Shown piece by piece: positions 3,821 through 29,783 of a stretch of 64,000 nt of DNA. Source of the DNA: Sphaerotilus uruguayifluvii (GTDB lineage Bacteria; Pseudomonadota; Gammaproteobacteria; Burkholderiales; Burkholderiaceae_C). The DNA is taken from contig NZ_JABSNM010000001.1 of the NCBI RefSeq assembly GCF_013294065.1, forward strand, positions 387,925-451,924. Direction: 5' to 3'. Numbering within the stretch: position 1 is the stretch's first letter; every line of letters begins with the position of its first letter. The notes under the pieces are model-generated. The model made no database searches and was not told the origin of the DNA. It saw nothing but the letters and a program-made list of their open reading frames with translations. Both the position numbers and the translations under genes were made by a program.

Positions 3821-4569
3821 ACCCGCCGCGTGCGCTGATCGGCCGCGGCCCGGTGCGCCATGCGCGGCGCCGGCCGGTGCCCCGCGCCTTCCGCTACGAC
3901 ACCTGGTTCCTGCTGCTGCCGATGCGCACGCTGCGCCAGCAGCCCGATCCGGTGCTGGCGCGCAACCGCGCCGCGCCGGTCAGCTTCCACGACCGCGACC
4001 ACGGCGACGGCGGCGACGACGCGCTGGCCTGGTTCGAGCGCCTGCTGGTGACCGAGGGCATCGCGGACGCCGACGGCGAGGTCTGGCTGCACACCTATCC
4101 GCGCGTGCTGGGCTACGCCTTCAAGCCGGTGAGCTTCTGGTACGCGCACCGTGCCGACGGCTCGCTGCGCGCCATCGTCGCCGAGGTCAACAACACCTTC
4201 GGCGAGCGCCACTGCTACCTGCTCGACGCGCCGGCCTGGGGCCGCGAGCTGCGCGCCGACAAGGTCTTCCACGTCTCGCCGTTCTGCCGCGTCGAGGGCC
4301 GCTACCGCTTCCGCTTCCTGCGCACCCCGGAGCGCACCGTGGTGCGCATCGACCATGACGACGCCGACGGCCGCGAGCTGATCAGCACCAGCGTCAGCGG
4401 CCACCTGGAGCCGCTGACGCCCGAGGCGCTACGCCGCGCCTGGACCGCCCACCCGCTGCTGACGCTGGGCGTGATGGCGCGCATCCACTGGCAGGCGCTG
4501 CAGCTGTGGTGGCGCCGCGTTCCCTTCTTCCACAAGCCGGCGCCGCCCGCGGCGCTGGTGAGCCGATGA
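3817..4569 (+). CDS. DUF1365 family protein
   Basis: The 250-residue protein matches the DUF1365 pattern: GPVRHARRRPVPRAFRY near the N-terminus, the central block YPRVLGYAFKPVSFWY, then VAEVNNTFGERHCY and KVFHVSPFC. No catalytic function is established for the family. It is almost always found between a flavin amine oxidase and a cyclopropane-fatty-acid-synthase homologue, as here, which suggests a role in acyl-chain modification. There is no signal peptide, and the C-terminal hydrophobic stretch LLTLGVMARIHWQALQLWW may associate with the membrane. The start overlaps the preceding stop by 4 nt. Confidence 0.9.
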   Translation: MNPPRALIGRGPVRHARRRPVPRAFRYDTWFLLLPMRTLRQQPDPVLARNRAAPVSFHDRDHGDGGDDALAWFERLLVTEGIADADGEVWLHTYPRVLGYAFKPVSFWYAHRADGSLRAIVAEVNNTFGERHCYLLDAPAWGRELRADKVFHVSPFCRVEGRYRFRFLRTPERTVVRIDHDDADGRELISTSVSGHLEPLTPEALRRAWTAHPLLTLGVMARIHWQALQLWWRRVPFFHKPAPPAALVSR

Positions 4570-16023: not shown

Positions 16024-18987
16024 TCAGATCAGGCTGAACTGGCGCGTCGCATCCGCTGCGGCGATGCAGCGAGCCTGACGCAGCAGATCGGCCAGCCGTG
16101 CCTGCCCGCCTTGCCACTCGTCCACAAGATCCTCTCCGAGCAGGACGTAAGACCAGTGCCGGTCGGCTCGGGCGTCGGCCGGCAGGGCATTGATGCGCTC
16201 GCACCAGGCTACGGCCGCGCGGCGCTTGCGCTGCACATCGGGGTGGATGACTTGCTGTTGCGCCTTGGTCTCGACGAGATAGATCGCGTCGGCGGTGCGC
16301 ACGAGAAAGTCTGGTGAATAGAACGCCGGCAGCCCGTCTTCCTTCACATAGCGCAGTCGCATGAAGTCATGGCGGGTCTCGCTGATCTTGCAGAAGGCCT
16401 CGATGTGACTGTCGGCCTGGGCCCAGTGGATGAAGCGCTTCTCCAGTCCGCCGTTGCGCGCTGGATAGGGCAGGCGCGGATAGATGCACTTGCCGACCTC
16501 GATCGAACTGCTCTCGCGCACCAGCAACTGCCGCACTTCCGAGAGCCTGCGGTGGCGGACCTCGGTCTCGCCGACGGGGCGCGATTGGGCGGCTTCGCGC
16601 AGGGCGTGACCGAAGATGCGCGTGAGGTGGTCGATGACCGGTTTCAGCAACAGCACGCGCCAGTTCTCTCCGTCATGCGGATTGAAGGCGGCGTCGAACA
16701 GGTGGCTCCAGATGTAGTCGTCCAGCCAGCCGGTCAGCGCTGCGGTGTTCACCTGCAGGTAGGGCAGGTCGAGGTGATGGGCAATCTTGTTGCCCTTGGG
16801 CAGCGGTTGGCTCAGGGACTGTCCGATGCGGCGGGTCAGTCGCGACAGGTAGTCGTTGTAGCCGCTCACCGTCATCACCGCGCCGTCGACGCGGTAATCG
16901 CCGAACAGCGTGCTGCTCTGCAGATCCTGGGAAATGAACTGATCGCCCCGCCCCAGCAGATCGACGAGCTGCTCCCGCGACATTGCCGTGAAGGCGGGTA
17001 GCCTGGAGACTTCCAGCTCGTTGTGCGCGATGACCTCGTCGGCTTCCTGAAGGATGAACGGAATGGCGAAGTCGAACGCCTCGAAGCCCTCGCGCAGCCG
17101 GGCGGCCATCAGGTCGCCTGTGCTGGTGTCCCGGTCGCTTTGCTCGGTGGTGGTGCCCGCCAGCTTCTCGTCCATCAGCTCCTGGTAGAACGTGTTGAAC
17201 GCCGGGTGTTCGACGATGGTCAGCACATCGAGCAGGCTGCCCGGCTCCTGACCGTTGTTGATGCGCAGGCGGTTGTCGGCCTTGATCTCGTCGTATTCGC
17301 GGTCACGCCACATCAGCCGCAGGCCGCGCCCGATCGTCTGTTCCAGCAGGATCTGCGCCTGAGACGAGCGCAGCGGCACGATGACGCAGATGTTGTTCAC
17401 GTCGAAGCCCTCGCGCAGCATCAGCACGCTGACGATCACGCGGGGTGTGGCGTGGTGATCGACGCCAAACAGCCGTTCGCGCACGGCGGCCCAGTCCTTC
17501 TCGCCCAGTTCGGCCTTCTTGCCCGAGTCGACCGACATCACGGCGTCCTCGGCCAGCCCTTCTTCTTCGGTCAGGAAGCGGGCGACCAGCGGCGAGACGC
17601 TGGTGTCCTCGCAGACGACCAGCATCTTCGGGTGGCGTGTCGGGTCGATCTTCGCGAAGTCGGTTTCCAGCTTGCGCAGCTTCATCAGACCGGCGCGCAG
17701 CATGACGCGCTGGCCCGCGCTGAGTTCGACGGCTCGGCCCTTGTCGTCGCGCTCCACGGTGAAGTCGAGCGGCAGCGCGCCAACTTCCTTGCGCCGGTCC
17801 AGCACCAGCGACTTCACCAGCCCGGCGCGCATGGCGGCTTTCAGGTCGAAGTCGGTGACGATGTGCGGAAAGTAGACCTTGCGCTTGTTCTTCGGCGTGC
17901 CGACGTCGTTGTACGGGGTGGCCGAGAAATCGATCTGCACGAAGCGCTGGCCTTTCGGCTCGGCGATGCGCGACAGACTTTTCTGCCACTCGACCTCGGT
18001 GGCTTCGCCCTCGCGCCTGAGTTCGTGAATGTGGTGGGCCTCGTCGTTGAACACCATCAGGTCGGGCAGCGCGCTCAGGTACTCCAGCACGTCGCCGCGG
18101 GCGTAGCGGCGGTCGAGCGTGTCCAAGCTGTTGCCGTTAGCGCGGCCTGGGGTCAGCGGTAGCACGGCGTCGATCACGCGATGCGCTGCCAGCGGGAGCG
18201 GGGTATCGCTGGTTTCGTCGGTTGCGTCAGCCTCGTCGTCCACGCCGTTTAGGAGGTGCCAGTTCGTGATGGCGATCATCCCGTTCCCTGTCGCCTTCAA
18301 GCCGATCTCGCCCTTGGCGCAGACGTTGCCGCGCACGAATGCCAGCACGCTGTCGCGGTATGCCTCGGGGATGAACAGCTCGGCGTTGCGGGCCATGTCG
18401 GAGGTGCTGAAATCGCGACCGCTGCCCACCAGCCGGCCGCAGAACGCATCCAGCAGCCGCTCATAGACGATCAGGCCTGGCGCGACGACCAGGAAGCGGC
18501 GCGTGAAGCGTGGGTCGTCCACGCCCTCGGCCTGTGCGGCATTGCGGTTGAGCACCTGCCAGACCATCAGCGCCTGCATGACCCAGGTCTTGCCGGTGCC
18601 GGTGGCCATTTTCAGACAGTATTTCGGGTGGTCGTGCTTGTGCTGCGCGACCTCCTGGCGGCGTGCGCCGGTCAGCGCGTGCGGCGCGACCTGCTCGTAG
18701 AGGTCGAGCAGCGAGCTGGATTCGAGCACCTCGTGCGCGACGATGGTGTTCAGGATCGCTTGTTTCTGGCCCGCGTGGAAGTTCAGCGATCCGCGCGCGG
18801 TGCACATCTCGTCGCTGAACCACCAGTGGAGCAGGTCGGCGGTGTAGGGCGTGACCTTGTGGAGGATCTCGGCCGAGCCGTCTTCCAGCCCTCGGCAGAG
18901 GGCGCGGGTGTATTCGGTCAGCGCGATCGACAGCGCGAGCGGGTTCGGGCTGGTCGCCGTGGCCGGTTTCGTCTTGGCGGTGCTCAT
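16024..18987 (-). CDS. res: Type III restriction enzyme, Res subunit (helicase-nuclease)
   Basis: The 987-residue protein has a DEAD/DEAH helicase core: Walker A ATGTGKT (128-134), NDEAHH near residue 315, FSATPY, and [10 protein letters not shown] (motif VI). A C-terminal PD-(D/E)xK nuclease has SPDFL followed by YLVETKAQ (about 890-907). Res subunits work with Mod and cleave DNA with unmethylated sites after ATP-driven movement. All motifs are intact, so the gene is probably functional. The ATG at 18987 overlaps the mod stop (ATGA), showing a mod-res operon. Base use is somewhat less GC-biased than in flanking genes. Confidence 0.92.
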
Positions 18988-20921
18988 TGCGCGGCCTCCG
19001 CCACCGTAGTGACCACCTCGGCCTCGAAGCCGAACACATCCACCGCCCGCACGCACACGCGCCGCGGGCCGGCCTTGTGCGGCACGGTCAGTCGGGCGTG
19101 GGTGACGACGCGTAGCGCGTCGTCGTCGTTGGCGGTGTTGCCGCGGTAGTCCTGCCAGACCGAGCGGAAAACTTTGCCGTCGTAATCCGGGTCGACGGCC
19201 CAGTATTCGATCAGCGCGAGCGGCTCCTGGTTCATCACCGCCTGGAGTTTCTGGCGGTTGGCATCGTCGAGATTGATCGCCTCGGGCGACAGCAGCACGT
19301 AGTTTCTGAGCTTGACGGCCAGGTGGTCAGCATCGTCGCTGCGGGTGCGCTCGACCGGGTGAAGAGTCAGATATTGAAGCGACGAGAAGCGGACCTGGCC
19401 GCGCAGTTTGTCGATGCCGCCCTTTTTCTTCAGGCGGTCGAGCAGGTCGGGGGGAATAACCAGCACTTCGAGGCGGTTGTCGTTGAGCGCGGTGATGTCC
19501 TGGCCGATCGAGGGCTCGAAATTCCAGCCGAGCACGACCACGCGGTCCCAGCCGCCGAGCAGGTTGTCGCGCTGGGCGATGGCCTTTTTCAGCGTGGCGA
19601 TGCCGGTGAGCTTGTTGGGGGAGTCGGCCAATACCAGTGTCTTGCTGCTCTTGCGGGGGCCGAGGTCGAGGCCGGCAATTTGGCCGAGGTTGCGTTGCGG
19701 GTTGAACTCGGCGGGCAGCGGCTGGGCGCCGTAGAGCGACAGCACGATCTGCGACAGGTCGCCGATGCGGAACTCGCGGCCCAGCGTCGCCTTGGCGGCT
19801 TCGACCTGGTAGTCGCCGATGGCCTGGTACAGGAAGGGCTTGGCGCTCTGGTCGATCAGCCGCTTGCGCATGATCATGCAGGCGGGCTTGCCGAGGTCGG
19901 TCGTGATCCAGCGCCGGCCGAGCTTTTCAGCGACGGCAGCGGTGGTGCCGGAGCCGCCGTTGAAGTCGGCGACGAGATCTCCTCTTGAGGACGAGGCTTT
20001 GATGATCCGCTCCAGCAATGGGAGCGGTTTTTCGGTTTCGTAGCCAACGCGCTTGACACCGTCGATCGGGTATCTACCGGCAATGGCCATGTTCCACCAT
20101 GACTCTGGCACCTTGCCTTCGGTCGCCAGATCGTAGTTATCAGATACAAACCCAGAGCCAGCAAGACCTGCTTTGAAGTTCTCAAGCGTCTTGTCGCTGT
20201 GGGCGGTCCGGATTTCGCGATCGTTGAACTGCCATGTTTCGCTCTTCGAGTACCAGTAGATGGTGTCGTGTTTCCGATTGAACTGGCGCATTCCGGGTGA
20301 TCCTGGACCGTTGTAGCACCAGACGATTTCGTTTCTCAGGAAACGCTTCCCGAATACGTCGTCGAGGATGACCTTCACGTAGTGCGCTACATGCCAGTCA
20401 AGGTGAACGTAGATCGACCCGGTCTCGGCCAGCAGCTCGCGCATCAGGACCAGCCGCGGCGTGATCATCGCCAGATACGACGCCGTGCCATCCGCCCAGG
20501 TGTCGGAGTAGGCGAACTGCTCGATCACGGTCGGCTTCTGCTCCAGCTCGACGCCGGGCAGCGTGACCTTGGTGCGGTAGTCGGCCTTCGAGTCGAACGG
20601 CGGGTCGATGTAGATCAGGTCCACCTTGCCGCGCAGTGACGGCGTGTTGTCGTCGCCGGCCAGCAGCGCGGCCATCGCCAGCAGGTTGTCGCCGTAGATC
20701 AGGCGGTTGACCCAGGCGTCCTGCTCGGACTGCGCCAGCCGGTCCTCCCGGGCGGCGCCCTGAATCCAGTCGGTGGCGCTGCTGTCCTTCGAGGGCAGGA
20801 CCCACTCGCGGGTCTGCAGGCTCACGCGGTGGCGGCTTTCGAGGCTCTCCAGGATCTTCTCGGCTTGGCGGCGCCCGTTGGCGACGATCTCGGGCAGTTG
20901 TTCCAGCAATGACTTCGGCAT
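18984..20921 (-). CDS. mod: Type III DNA-methyltransferase, Mod subunit (adenine-specific, beta class)
   Basis: The 645-residue protein has the methyltransferase motif IV DPPF (106-109) before the SAM motif FNGGSGTT (320-327). This order defines the beta class typical of type III Mod proteins. Between them lies a target-recognition-like region. About 300 residues follow the SAM motif, a long C-terminal extension. Mod methylates adenine in the recognition sequence and guides Res. The gene starts at ATG 20921, next to the operator region shared with the divergent XRE regulator. The region 20040-20340 is AT-richer than the host average, suggesting transfer. Confidence 0.92.
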
Positions 20922-24691: not shown

Positions 24692-25810
24692 ATGCAGATC
24701 CGCGCCGAGCAGCTCGCCGCCGCGCTGGCCAAGGGCCTGCGCCCGCTCTATGTCATCCACGGCGACGAGCCGCTGCTGGCGCAGGAGGCGGCCGACGCGG
24801 TGCGCGCCGCCGCGCGTGCGGCCGGCTGCAGCGAGCGCACGGTGCACACCGTCGCCGGCGGCCATTTCGACTGGGCCGGCCTGCTGGGCGACGCCGGCGC
24901 GCTGAGCCTGTTCGCCGAGCGGCGGCTGATCGAGATCCGCATTCCCTCCGGCAAGCCGGGCAAGGACGGCTCGGAGGCGCTGCAGCGCTATGTCGAGCAG
25001 CTCGGCGCCGACGACGTCACGCTGGTGATGCTGCCGCGCCTGGATCGCACCCAGCTCGGCAGCGCCTGGTTCGGCGCGCTCGACGGCGCCGGGCTGGCGG
25101 TGCGCGTCGATCCGGTCGAGCGCCGGGCGCTGCCGGTCTGGATCGCGCAGCGCCTGGCGCAGCACGGCCTGCGGGTCGAGGACGGCGAGGCGGGCCAGCA
25201 GGCGCTGGCCTTCTTCGCCGACCGGGTCGAGGGCAATCTGCTGGCGGCGCACCAGGAGATCACCAAGCTGGCGCTGCTGCACGCGCCAGCCGATCCACGC
25301 GGCGCGCCCGCGGTGCTGGCGCGCGAGCAGATCGAGGCGGCGGTGCTCGATGTCGCGCGCTACGACGTCTTCCGCCTCGGCGAGGCGGTGCTGGCGGGTG
25401 ACGCGGCGCGCGCGCTGCGCATGCTCGACGGCCTGCAGGCCGAGGGCGAGGCGGCGGTGCTGGTGCACTGGACGCTGGCCGACGACCTGCGCGGCCTGCA
25501 GCGGGTGCACGCGGCGATGCAGCAGGGCCGGCCGCTGCCGATGGCGCTGCGCGAGGCGCGGGTCTGGGGTCTGAAGGAAAAGCTCTTCGAGCGGGTGCTG
25601 CCGCGGCTGGACAGCGCGACGCTGGCCACGCTGGTCGATGCGGCCCACGCCTGCGACGGGATCGTCAAGGGGCTGCGCGATCCGCGCTGGCCGGACGATC
25701 CATGGGCGGCGCTGCAGCAGCTGGTGCTGATGACGCTGGCCGCGGTCGCGCCGAAGTCCGGGGTGCCGGCCCTGGCTGCGGCGGCACGACCGCCGGCCGC
25801 ACGCCAATAG
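24692..25810 (+). CDS. holA: DNA polymerase III delta subunit
   Basis: A 372-residue HolA: RPLYVIHGDEPLLAQEAADAV at the start (the degenerate ATPase fold), VEGNLLAAHQEITKLALL in the middle and a helical C-terminus (WGLKEKLFERVLPRL). Delta opens the sliding clamp as part of the clamp loader. The C-terminus has an Ala/Pro-rich extension. It ends with a TAG stop, one of few in this window, which matters for interpreting the amber codons in the next gene. Confidence 0.94.
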   Translation: MQIRAEQLAAALAKGLRPLYVIHGDEPLLAQEAADAVRAAARAAGCSERTVHTVAGGHFDWAGLLGDAGALSLFAERRLIEIRIPSGKPGKDGSEALQRYVEQLGADDVTLVMLPRLDRTQLGSAWFGALDGAGLAVRVDPVERRALPVWIAQRLAQHGLRVEDGEAGQQALAFFADRVEGNLLAAHQEITKLALLHAPADPRGAPAVLAREQIEAAVLDVARYDVFRLGEAVLAGDAARALRMLDGLQAEGEAAVLVHWTLADDLRGLQRVHAAMQQGRPLPMALREARVWGLKEKLFERVLPRLDSATLATLVDAAHACDGIVKGLRDPRWPDDPWAALQQLVLMTLAAVAPKSGVPALAAAARPPAARQ

Positions 25811-25902: not shown

Positions 25903-27543
25903 GTGCCCAAGCTGTTCCGTCGCCGTCCGCGCTCGCTGGCGCTCTACATCGCGTTGCCCTTTGTCGGCATGGTCCTGCTCTGGCAGGCCGTCGGCCTGTG
26001 GCTGACGCATGGCGCGATCGACCGCAGCGCGACCCGCTCGATCGAGGCCGAGCTGCTGACCGGCCGCCGCGTCTTCGAGCAGCTGCTGGCGCAGCGCTCG
26101 GGGCGGCTGGCCGAGGGGGCGCGGCTGCTGGCCAGCGACAACGGCTTCCGCTCCGCGGTCGCCGGCGGCGATCTGGCGGCGATGGAGAGCGCGCTGCGCG
26201 AGCACGGCCAGCGCCTCCATGCGGCGCTGGCGCTGGTGGTCGACACCGACTGGCGGCCGCTGGCCGCCACCGGCATCGACATGCGCACGCTGGCGCCGCT
26301 GCTGGTCGAGGCGCGCGAGCTCCAGCACGAGGCGCCGCGGGTGCCGGCCGGCGCCGATGCCGAGATGCATGTGCCCGGTCTGGTGGGCGTGCAGGAGCGG
26401 CCGCTGCAGATCGTCGCGGTGCCGATCCAGGTGCCGCGCCGGGTCGGCTGGGTGCTGCTGGGGTTCGAGATCGACCAGACGCTGCTGGCCCAGCTCGGCG
26501 CGATCACCGGACTGCGCTCGGTGCTGACGGTCGACCGGCCGGCCGGCGCGCGGATGCTGGCGGGCACGCTGCAGGCCCGGATGCTGCCGCCCTCGCACGA
26601 GCATGGCGGGCTGCGCTGCGACCTGATGCTGCAGCAGGACGGCGAGGACTGGCAGGCCTGCGACTTCCGCATCGACCTGCAGGTCGGCTCGGCGCCGGGC
26701 CAGCACGGGCACCTGCATCTGGTGCTGGCGCGAGCGGTCGCGCCGGCGCTGCAGCCCTTCCGCGAGCTGCAGCATCAGCAGATCGAGCTCGCGGCGGTCG
26801 CGCTGGTGCTGCTGGCGCTGGGCAGCATGGCGCTGGCGCGGCGCTTCAGCGCGCCGATCCTGGCGCTGCGCCAGGCGGCCGAGCGGCTCGGCGCCGGCGA
26901 GCTGGCCGAACCGGTCGCCCAGCCCGATCCGGCCCGCACGCCGCCGGACCTGCAGCGCCTGGCACGCTCCTTCGAGGCGATGCGCCAGGCGGTGCAGCAG
27001 CGCGAGCACCGCATCGGCCGGCTCGCCTACTGGGATCCGCTGACCGGCCTGCCCAACCGCGCGCAGTTCGTCGACCGCCTGGGCGCGCAGCTGGCGCTGT
27101 GCGACGCGGCCCGGCCGCTGGCGGTGCTGATGCTCGACCTGGACCGCTTCAAGCATGTCAACGACGCGCTCGGCCACCCCTTCGGCGACCTGATGCTGCG
27201 CAAGGTCGCCAGCCGGCTCGAGCCGACGGCACGCCAGGCCGGCGCGCTGCTGGCGCGGCTCGGCGGCGACGAGTTCGGGCTGCTGCTGCCGCGCGCCGGC
27301 GTCGAGCATGCGCGCGAGGTCGCGCAGGCGGTGCTGCAGGCGCTGCAGGCGCCGCTGCGCATCGACGGCCAGCTGGTCGACTGCTCGGGCGGCATGGGCA
27401 TCGCGCTGGCGCCGGCGCACGCGACGCAGGCCGAGGCCCTGCTCGGGCAGGTCGAGGTCGCGATGTACGCGGCCAAGCGGCGCCTGGCCGGCGTGCTGGT
27501 CTACGAGCCGTCGATGGACAGCCGCAGCAGCGGCTCGCTGTAG
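25903..27543 (+). CDS. Membrane sensor diguanylate cyclase (N-terminal part of a GGDEF-EAL gene, ends at in-frame TAG)
   Basis: The frame encodes a membrane helix (about 11-34), a periplasmic sensor region, a second helix (ELAAVALVLLALGSMALA), a HAMP-like segment and a GGDEF domain with the active motif GGDEF at 454-458, followed by the usual MYAAKRR end. It then meets TAG (codon 547) just before an EAL domain in the same frame. As it stands the product would be a complete diguanylate cyclase making c-di-GMP without the phosphodiesterase partner. The RxxD inhibitory site is absent (ARQAG stands there). The start is taken as GTG 25903; ATG 25861 is also in frame. Confidence 0.8.
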   Translation: MPKLFRRRPRSLALYIALPFVGMVLLWQAVGLWLTHGAIDRSATRSIEAELLTGRRVFEQLLAQRSGRLAEGARLLASDNGFRSAVAGGDLAAMESALREHGQRLHAALALVVDTDWRPLAATGIDMRTLAPLLVEARELQHEAPRVPAGADAEMHVPGLVGVQERPLQIVAVPIQVPRRVGWVLLGFEIDQTLLAQLGAITGLRSVLTVDRPAGARMLAGTLQARMLPPSHEHGGLRCDLMLQQDGEDWQACDFRIDLQVGSAPGQHGHLHLVLARAVAPALQPFRELQHQQIELAAVALVLLALGSMALARRFSAPILALRQAAERLGAGELAEPVAQPDPARTPPDLQRLARSFEAMRQAVQQREHRIGRLAYWDPLTGLPNRAQFVDRLGAQLALCDAARPLAVLMLDLDRFKHVNDALGHPFGDLMLRKVASRLEPTARQAGALLARLGGDEFGLLLPRAGVEHAREVAQAVLQALQAPLRIDGQLVDCSGGMGIALAPAHATQAEALLGQVEVAMYAAKRRLAGVLVYEPSMDSRSSGSL

Positions 27544-28347
27544 CTGCTCAGCGAGCTGCGCGCCGCGGTCGAGAACGACGCGCTGTGCCTGTACCTGCAG
27601 CCGAAGATCGAGCTCGATGGCGGGCGGGTGATCGGCGCGGAGGCGCTGGTGCGCTGGATCGACCCGGTGCGCGGCATCGTGCCGCCGATGCAGTTCATCC
27701 CCTTCGCCGAGCAGACCGGCTTCATCCGCGAGATCACCCGCTGGATGCTGTCGCACGGCGTGCGCGAGATGGCGCGCTGGAGCGAGCTGGGCCAGCCGCT
27801 GCGGCTCAGCATCAACCTGTCGACCCGTGACCTGCTCGATGTCGATCTGGTCGACTAGGTCGCCGGCCTGCTGGCGCAGCATGACGTGCCCGCCGGCCGC
27901 CTCTGCCTGGAGATCACCGAGAGCGCGATCATGGACGATCCCGCCCGCGCGATGCAGACGCTGCAGCGCCTGAGCGAGCTGGGCGTGCGGCTGTCGATCG
28001 ACGACTTCGGCACCGGCTATTCCTCGCTGGCCTACCTGAAGCGGCTGCCGGTCGACGAGCTCAAGATCGACCGCAGCTTCGTCATCGGCATGGAGCGCGA
28101 CCTCGACGACGCGCGCATCGTGCGCTCGACCATCGGCCTGGCGCACACGCTGGGGCTGACGGTGGTCGCCGAGGGCGTCGAGAACGAGAAGCTGATGGCG
28201 ATGCTCGAGCACCTGGGCTGCGACGAGGCCCAGGGCTACGGCATCGCCCGGCCGATGCCGGTCGAGGACTGGCTGCCGTGGGTCGAGCGCTGGCAGGCGC
28301 CGCAGACCGGCACCGTGCGCCTCGACACCGATTTCCAGCAGCTCTGA
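27544..28347 (+). pseudogene. Detached EAL phosphodiesterase domain, same frame, with a second in-frame TAG
   Basis: The reading frame of the upstream GGDEF gene continues without shift past TAG 27541-27543 and encodes a full EAL domain. It has EALVRW (E at 27640), the metal-binding asparagine in INLS, LEITES, IDDFGTGYSS, ELKIDRSF, AEGVEN and QGYGIARP. A second TAG at 27856-27858 falls between INLSTRDLL and the LEITES block. Both ambers could come from CAG glutamine codons by one transition each. All known catalytic residues remain, so decay is recent if this is a pseudogene. No obvious start or ribosome-binding site restarts translation after either TAG. Readthrough is possible but unproven. 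Confidence 0.8.
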
Positions 28348-28383: not shown

Positions 28384-29292
28384 TCAGTAGCCGCGGCTGC
28401 GCTCGACCCGGTTCGGCACCGGGCGGCCCTCGCGCCAGGCGCGGATGCCCGCGGCGGCGATGCGCGCGGCACTGCGCGGATCGGTCTGCGCCGCCGCGTG
28501 CGGCAGCAGCGTGATCGCCGGATGGCGCCAGAAGCGGTGCGCCGGCGGCAGCGGCTCCTGGTGGAAGACATCCAGCACCGCATGCGCGATCTGCCCGGCG
28601 TCGAGCGCCGCGAGCAGGTCGGCCTCGACCAGATGCGCGCCGCGCGCCAGGTTGACCAGGCTGGCGCGTGCCGGCAGCCGTGCCAGGAAGGCCGCGTCGA
28701 TCAGGCCGCGGGTGTCGGCGGTCAGCGGCAGCAGGTTGATGACGATGCGGCAGTCGGCCAGCACCGGCGCGAGCGGCTCGCCCCGGCGCCAGCCGGCGGC
28801 GCGGTAGCCGCGCTGGCGCAGCGCGTGCATCACCGTGCCGCCCATCTGGCCCTGGCCGAGCACGGCGACCTTGATCTCGTCGGCGCGCAGCTGCGGCAGC
28901 GCCTGCCAGACGCCGGCGCGCTGCTGGCGGGCGTACAGATGGAAATGGCGGTGCAGCGTCAGCACCGCCCACAGCGCGGTCTCGGCCATCGCGGCGTTCA
29001 TCGCCGGATCGACCATGCGCGCCAGCGGCACCTCGGCCGGCAGCGTCGGGTCGGCCAGCAGCCGGTCGACGCCGGCCCACAGCGACTGGATCAGCCCGAG
29101 CCGCGGCAGCCCGGCCAGCAGCCCCGGCGGCGGATTGGCGACGATGGCCACATCGATGTCCTCGCGCAGCGCGGGCTGCGCGGCCAGGTCCTGCGGCAGC
29201 AGCAGCCGCTCGCCCGGCAGCGCCGCCTGCAGCGCGGGCAGCCAGGCGGCCCAGTCCGCGGCGTCGAAGTCGCAGGCCAGCAGGACGCTCAT
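28384..29292 (-). CDS. D-2-hydroxyacid dehydrogenase (GhrA-like glyoxylate/hydroxypyruvate reductase)
   Basis: The 302-residue protein has the NAD(P)-binding motif VLGQGQMG, the conserved NLARG segment with its arginine, and an HQEPLPPAHRFW region near the catalytic histidine at the end (LLPHAAAQTDP). The short N-terminal domain with SLWAGVDRLL resembles GhrA of E. coli. It would reduce glyoxylate or hydroxypyruvate. Its start overlaps the stop of pncC (ATGA), so it closes the thiL-pgpA-pncC operon. Confidence 0.88.
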   Translation of the reverse strand: MSVLLACDFDAADWAAWLPALQAALPGERLLLPQDLAAQPALREDIDVAIVANPPPGLLAGLPRLGLIQSLWAGVDRLLADPTLPAEVPLARMVDPAMNAAMAETALWAVLTLHRHFHLYARQQRAGVWQALPQLRADEIKVAVLGQGQMGGTVMHALRQRGYRAAGWRRGEPLAPVLADCRIVINLLPLTADTRGLIDAAFLARLPARASLVNLARGAHLVEADLLAALDAGQIAHAVLDVFHQEPLPPAHRFWRHPAITLLPHAAAQTDPRSAARIAAAGIRAWREGRPVPNRVERSRGY

Positions 29293-29783
29293 CGCAGCGC
29301 GTCCAGCAGCACGGTCAGCGCGTGGTCGCGGGTCTGGCGGCGCACGGCCGCACGGTCGCCGTCGAAGCGGCGCATCTCGGTCCAGCTGCGTCCGGGCAGC
29401 GTCCAGCCGAACCAGACCGTGCCGACCGGCTTGGCCGCGCTGCCGCCGCCGGGCCCGGCGATGCCGGTGACCGCCAGCGTGCACTGCACCGGCGCGTGGC
29501 GCGCCGCGCCCTCGGCCATCGCGCGCGCCACCGGCTCGCTGACCGCGCCGTGCGCCTCGATCAGCGCGGCCGGCACGCCCAGCAGCTCGGTCTTGGCGGC
29601 GTTGCTGTAGGTGACGAAGCCGCGCTCGAACCAGTCGCTCGAGCCGGCCAGATCGGTGCAGGCCGCGGCGATCAGGCCGCCGGTGCAGCTCTCGGCGCTG
29701 GCCAGGCGCCAGCCGCGGCTGTGCAGTGCGGCCGCCAGCGCGTCCAGGTCCGGGGGCAGGGCGGAGGAAGAGGAATCGGTCAT
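29289..29783 (-). CDS. pncC: Nicotinamide-nucleotide amidohydrolase (CinA C-terminal family)
   Basis: The 164-residue CinA-C domain has SAESCTGGLIAA, SDWFERGFVTYSNAAKTELLGV and VTGIAGPGGGSAAKPVGTVW. The enzyme deamidates NMN in the pyridine nucleotide cycle. It is a stand-alone domain without the N-terminal CinA part, as usual in Burkholderiales. In-frame ATGs at 29789 and 29792 would add two or three residues, and the latter overlaps the pgpA stop. The choice is uncertain. Confidence 0.92.
   Translation of the reverse strand: MTDSSSSALPPDLDALAAALHSRGWRLASAESCTGGLIAAACTDLAGSSDWFERGFVTYSNAAKTELLGVPAALIEAHGAVSEPVARAMAEGAARHAPVQCTLAVTGIAGPGGGSAAKPVGTVWFGWTLPGRSWTEMRRFDGDRAAVRRQTRDHALTVLLDALR

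Follow-up and report, generated by a model that had tools for sequence, protein, structure and literature searches.

Two in-frame amber codons in a GGDEF-EAL gene of Sphaerotilus uruguayifluvii: a probable recent truncation between cyclase and phosphodiesterase domains

Results

A composite c-di-GMP gene with two in-frame amber codons

Members of the Sphaerotilus group are sheathed, biofilm-forming freshwater filaments. The DNA analysed here (the window) is a stretch of 64,000 nucleotides from the 4.89-Mb draft genome of Sphaerotilus uruguayifluvii, which comprises 48 contigs. Positions 25903-28347 of its forward strand hold a single reading frame with the Pfam domain order dCache_3-HAMP-GGDEF-EAL and, as encoded, the frame belongs to the GGDEF-EAL composite c-di-GMP enzymes. 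The features of the locus are as follows.

24692-25810, + strand: holA (DNA polymerase III delta), upstream neighbour and syntenic anchor in relatives
25903-27543, + strand: open reading frame up to the first in-frame TAG, with dCache_3 sensor, HAMP and GGDEF (translation, Pfam)
26038-26553, + strand: dCache_3 sensor, residues 46-217 (Pfam, E 2e-09)
26833-27000, + strand: HAMP, residues 311-366 (Pfam, E 8.1e-09)
27025-27483, + strand: GGDEF, residues 375-527 (Pfam, profile positions 1-157 of 161)
27262-27276, + strand: GGDEF motif, intact, in a GGDEF domain without an RxxD I-site
27541-27543, + strand: TAG1, in-frame, codon 547, between the GGDEF and EAL matches
27544-27855, + strand: first part of EAL, with the EAL-motif Glu and the conserved Asn (Pfam)
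27856-27858, + strand: TAG2, in-frame, codon 652, the one TAG within the EAL match
27859-28347, + strand: remainder of EAL up to the terminal TGA (translation, Pfam)
28384-29484, - strand: D-2-hydroxyacid dehydrogenase-like gene, downstream neighbour (mechanical open reading frame bounds)

Translation confirms the first-pass annotation in placing both TAG codons in one frame, with the terminal TGA as the only other stop, and the Pfam matches all lie in that frame, in keeping with its statement that no frameshift exists. TAG2 splits the EAL match into two pieces, which align to 3-101 and 108-236 of the 236 profile positions. The open reading frame to TAG1 encodes 546 residues counted from the start chosen in the first-pass annotation, the exact start codon being uncertain. 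Within the window, TAG1 and TAG2 are the only in-frame stops that a composition scan finds flanked by coding signature; the scan detects only stretches of at least 50 codons passing its GC thresholds.

The relatives compared lack both stops

The comparison set of 118 homologous loci was drawn from the best 80 of 573 matches and from 30 loci of a sensor-region search. Removal of the window's own loci (L001 and L009) and of eight matches scoring 430 bits or less (L030 and the paralogues L002-L008) left 108 loci, from which seven duplicates were removed to give 101 non-redundant rows. None of these rows, among the matches listed, has a stop within the aligned domains, and none has at either place the TAG that conserved readthrough or recoding would lead one to expect. 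Both TAG codons are thus private to the S. uruguayifluvii genome among the rows examined, and the window copy is the only one of these dCache_3-HAMP-GGDEF-EAL homologues of Burkholderiales to be interrupted there. Outside the aligned domains, stops occur in 2 of the 108 loci: a TGA past EAL in L112, and a TAA in L028 that precedes the conserved N-terminal stretch. The 100 relatives searched include no second genome of the species, the nearest match having 65% identity in the sensor region. EAL relatives were common in a plasmid search.

Each TAG is, as had been stated, one transition from CAG, but the CAG origin that this implied finds little favour in the residues of relatives. Among the matches listed (n = 101), site 1 is occupied by Ser in 85, Thr in 12, Gly in 4 and Gln in none, so that CAG ancestry is contradicted and rejected there; site 2 is occupied by Lys in 66, Arg in 26, Gln in 2 and other residues in 7, so that CAG ancestry is disfavoured, though possible. 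Site 2 is Arg in both of the nearest named relatives and Gln in the nearest metagenome-assembled genome (L041).

The shared identity of the two stops is accounted for by composition. In the EAL region 64 of 2,394 single-base changes create a stop, and 51 of these 64 yield TAG; the TAG share is 0.80, 0.78 and 0.77 at transition weights of 1, 2 and 4, with corresponding probabilities of 0.64, 0.61 and 0.60 that two stops are both TAG. Two amber codons are therefore expected, since TAG makes up 77-80% of one-step nonsense outcomes, and an all-amber set of in-frame stops in a GC-rich gene is a compositional expectation, not evidence of suppression. The 44 coding-like open reading frames of the window end in TGA (40), TAG (3, TAG1 being counted among them by the script's rule) and TAA (1).

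The EAL region shows no sign of decay

The claim that the EAL catalytic residues survive is borne out: all nine checked positions are present in the window (E580, N638, E670, E673, D700, D701, K721, E757 and Q777), and each has the identical residue in 101 of 101 relatives among the matches listed. Under the standard code these residues do not lie on one translated polypeptide: all of them follow TAG1, and TAG2 divides them, so that the locus would not encode an active EAL phosphodiesterase. Separate translation of EAL is rejected, as TAG2 splits the domain; the piece after TAG2 is without the EAL-motif Glu and the conserved Asn.

Branch dN/dS was taken from a three-taxon split of Nei-Gojobori distances (window, S. 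natans = L040, L041). For EAL the window branch gives 0.29 (bootstrap 95% 0.12-0.69), with 0.34 (0.19-0.64) for S. natans and 0.49 (0.27-0.99) for L041; for the N-terminal part, where the measure is blind to recent loss, it gives 0.61, against 0.60 for S. natans and 0.57 for L041. Of the EAL columns, 84 are conserved in at least 97% of the other rows. The window deviates at one of these, a deviation common to S. natans and S. sulfidivorans; when the measure is applied leave-one-out to the 101 other rows, 62 deviate at none and 20 at one. Constraint on the EAL region of the window is undiminished, and the stops are therefore probably young, or else false or read through. Were the region neutral, a second nonsense change would precede every missense change at the 84 columns with a probability of 0.106-0.120. 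The value is low, so that two stops without such a missense change are somewhat unexpected under neutral decay after the first stop, and to that extent it counts against the truncation reading, but it is unremarkable. The private stops in an otherwise undecayed sequence are the mark of a recently nonsense-truncated gene.

The GGDEF half and the absence of the I-site

The GG(D/E)EF signature of diguanylate cyclases is intact in a near-complete domain (profile positions 1-157 of 161), and both Pfam and a motif check bear out the earlier statement that the product truncated at TAG1 would have a whole GGDEF domain without the RxxD site. The absence of this brake is no product of the lesion: RxxD occurs in 21 of 101 rows among the matches listed, and the three nearest relatives are also without it, which dates its absence to before the stops. 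The signature itself varies among relatives, with Asn at D456 in 14 of 101 and Ser at G454 in 17 of 101. Since the checked EAL residues do not vary and the GGDEF signature does, phosphodiesterase may be the main activity of the relatives, and the activity that truncation would remove is the most conserved one. The proposed switch from a bifunctional enzyme to a pure synthase is possible.

The gene in the genus

The closest named homologues, among the best 80 of 573 matches, are those of S. sulfidivorans D-501 and S. natans ATCC 13338, whose coding sequences from base 61 are identical to those of the congeners G005 and G010. The S. natans ATCC 13338 gene has 74% amino-acid identity to the window over residues 3-814, and in S. 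natans (G010, L209) it has the same neighbours, namely holA, the 2-hydroxyacid dehydrogenase gene and the gene after it.

A sensor-region match is present in 7 of 12 congeners and missing from 5, in a search that scored up to 20 first-look candidates per genome and could miss a weak homologue (20 were scored of 22, 26, 24, 22 and 20 in G001, G007, G009, G011 and G012). All 12 congeners have holA. In each of the five that give no sensor-region match, the 4.4-4.7 kb past the end of holA holds no homologue of the gene or of the dehydrogenase (E 1e-5). In G004 the homologue and holA lie on different contigs, and the stretch after holA is without the gene and the dehydrogenase. Since five of the 12 lack a match and have no homologue in that stretch downstream of holA, loss of the gene appears to be tolerated, and it looks dispensable in the genus. 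The sensor also evolves fast, as indicated by its 60-65% identity in the three nearest congeners, where holA is 94-96% identical, and by its pairwise dN/dS of 0.66-0.72.

No decoder for TAG is apparent

The first-pass annotation had raised amber readthrough to a minor full-length form and a suppressor tRNA as its possible agent, and neither proposal is upheld. All 63 matches to RF00005 (Rfam tRNA) in the 48-contig draft genome were passed to ARAGORN, and none of the 62 tRNAs that it called has a CTA anticodon. The PylS model scores above its cut-off in one of 14 control genomes; its three matches in the draft genome all fall short of that value (best 26.0 bits, cut-off 178.15 bits). RF1 is intact, with model positions 6-359 of 361 matched above cut-off and no stops. 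Within the reach of the RF00005 model, the draft genome thus yields neither a suppressor or Pyl tRNA nor loss of RF1. The 100 bases after TAG1 and TAG2 fold no better than shuffled sequences (z 0.17 and 0.10; controls near the first site of the S. natans gene and in the GGDEF interior of the window, -0.61 and -0.72).

Domain matches of four families were scanned genome-wide for internal stops: 53 GGDEF, 27 EAL, 93 ABC (6 below the family cut-off; 150 of 188 first-look candidates scored) and 73 HATPase (3 below cut-off). Among these 246 matches, which cover domains and not whole genes, two have an internal stop, the EAL match of 25903-28347 (TAG) and one HATPase match (TAA). Genome-wide recoding of TAG is rejected, the EAL match being the only one of the 246 with a TAG. 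The HATPase_c match, at C8:87592-87858 (-), has its single TAA in frame and possibly belongs to another interrupted gene of this genome.

Discussion

The reading that best accounts for the locus, and in which we have good confidence, is that a recent nonsense truncation removes the phosphodiesterase and probably leaves a membrane diguanylate cyclase. Translation would end at TAG1 and the EAL phosphodiesterase would never be made, while a membrane sensor-HAMP-GGDEF protein of about 546 residues would probably still be produced and may act as a diguanylate cyclase. One TAG presumably arose first and the other would be a passenger gained soon after, both being too young for decay elsewhere to show. 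Loss of one c-di-GMP enzyme is probably buffered, given the 53 GGDEF and 27 EAL matches in the genome. If real, the gene would be an example from nature of a composite c-di-GMP enzyme that has lost its degrading domain and nothing else, without unusual decoding.

The undiminished constraint on EAL counts against truncation insofar as it fits error or readthrough equally. A sequencing or assembly error, or a mutation in the sequenced clone alone, with the gene intact in the population, is the strongest competitor, albeit an unlikely one: it would explain why EAL shows no relaxation, and the assembly is a draft. It would also need the coincidence of two errors within 318 bases, both nonsense and neither a frameshift, with no missense at conserved EAL columns and no further such interruption in the composition scan of the window. 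Because so few single-base changes in the EAL region are nonsense, the two stops together are hard to attribute to random base-call noise. A real lesion of recent date is the probable case.

Death of the whole gene, with a truncated product that is unstable or inactive and a GGDEF half lost as well, is less probable still. It would suit a gene whose sensor-region match is missing from five congeners and whose main function may lie in EAL, given that the residues checked there vary less than the GGDEF signature. Both the GGDEF domain and its motif are nevertheless intact, and N-terminal dN/dS, blind as it is to recent loss, is close to that of the sister branches.

Functional readthrough, in which the TAG codons would be decoded at a low level under some condition, with a cyclase as the main product and an occasional full-length cyclase-phosphodiesterase through which EAL is selected, would also agree with the constraint on EAL and is raised for Shigella dgcQ and dgcN by the authors of PMC11327459 in the portion available, yet it is very improbable, as two successive TAG codons would compound the loss of yield, relatives lack the stops, and the genome shows no CTA tRNA, PylS match over cut-off, loss of RF1, other TAG in the 246 domain matches or unusual RNA structure downstream.

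Recent truncation has partial parallels in the literature. Premature stops in diguanylate cyclase genes of Shigella flexneri are described in PMC11327459, where c-di-GMP production is reported for two such genes, dgcE and dgcQ; the likeness lies in c-di-GMP enzyme genes carrying premature stops. The five stop-bearing genes there are interrupted ahead of GGDEF, with a Met nearby, whereas the window gene is cut after a whole GGDEF and loses EAL. A large-scale survey of prokaryotic genes, as far as the accessible text of PMC7918605 goes, finds in-frame stops to be widespread, with dN/dS below 1, and mostly short-lived in evolution. The window case fits the pattern given in that text, EAL having dN/dS below 1 despite an in-frame stop, except that the survey treats stops common to at least two species while those of the window occur in one genome only. 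All that sets the window gene apart is that TAG1 falls cleanly between two enzyme domains. A literature search on Sphaerotilus, genome and c-di-GMP returned only works unrelated by title.

Other observations

Three further features of the genome were recorded. On contig C9, positions 3908-3994 (L174:109-195) give a weak tRNA match of 30.7 bits without an ARAGORN call, which by eye looks like a tRNA-Val 3' half, carrying CAC in the loop, next to a disrupted 5' half; it may be what remains of the attachment site of an integrated element. On contig C1, past the right end of the window, a TGA at L189:11567 (+) has coding-like composition on both sides in the same frame and may separate two adjacent genes or interrupt one. 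Within the window, a large open reading frame at 18984-20921 (-) reads, by its motifs, like a putative DNA methyltransferase of a restriction-modification system.
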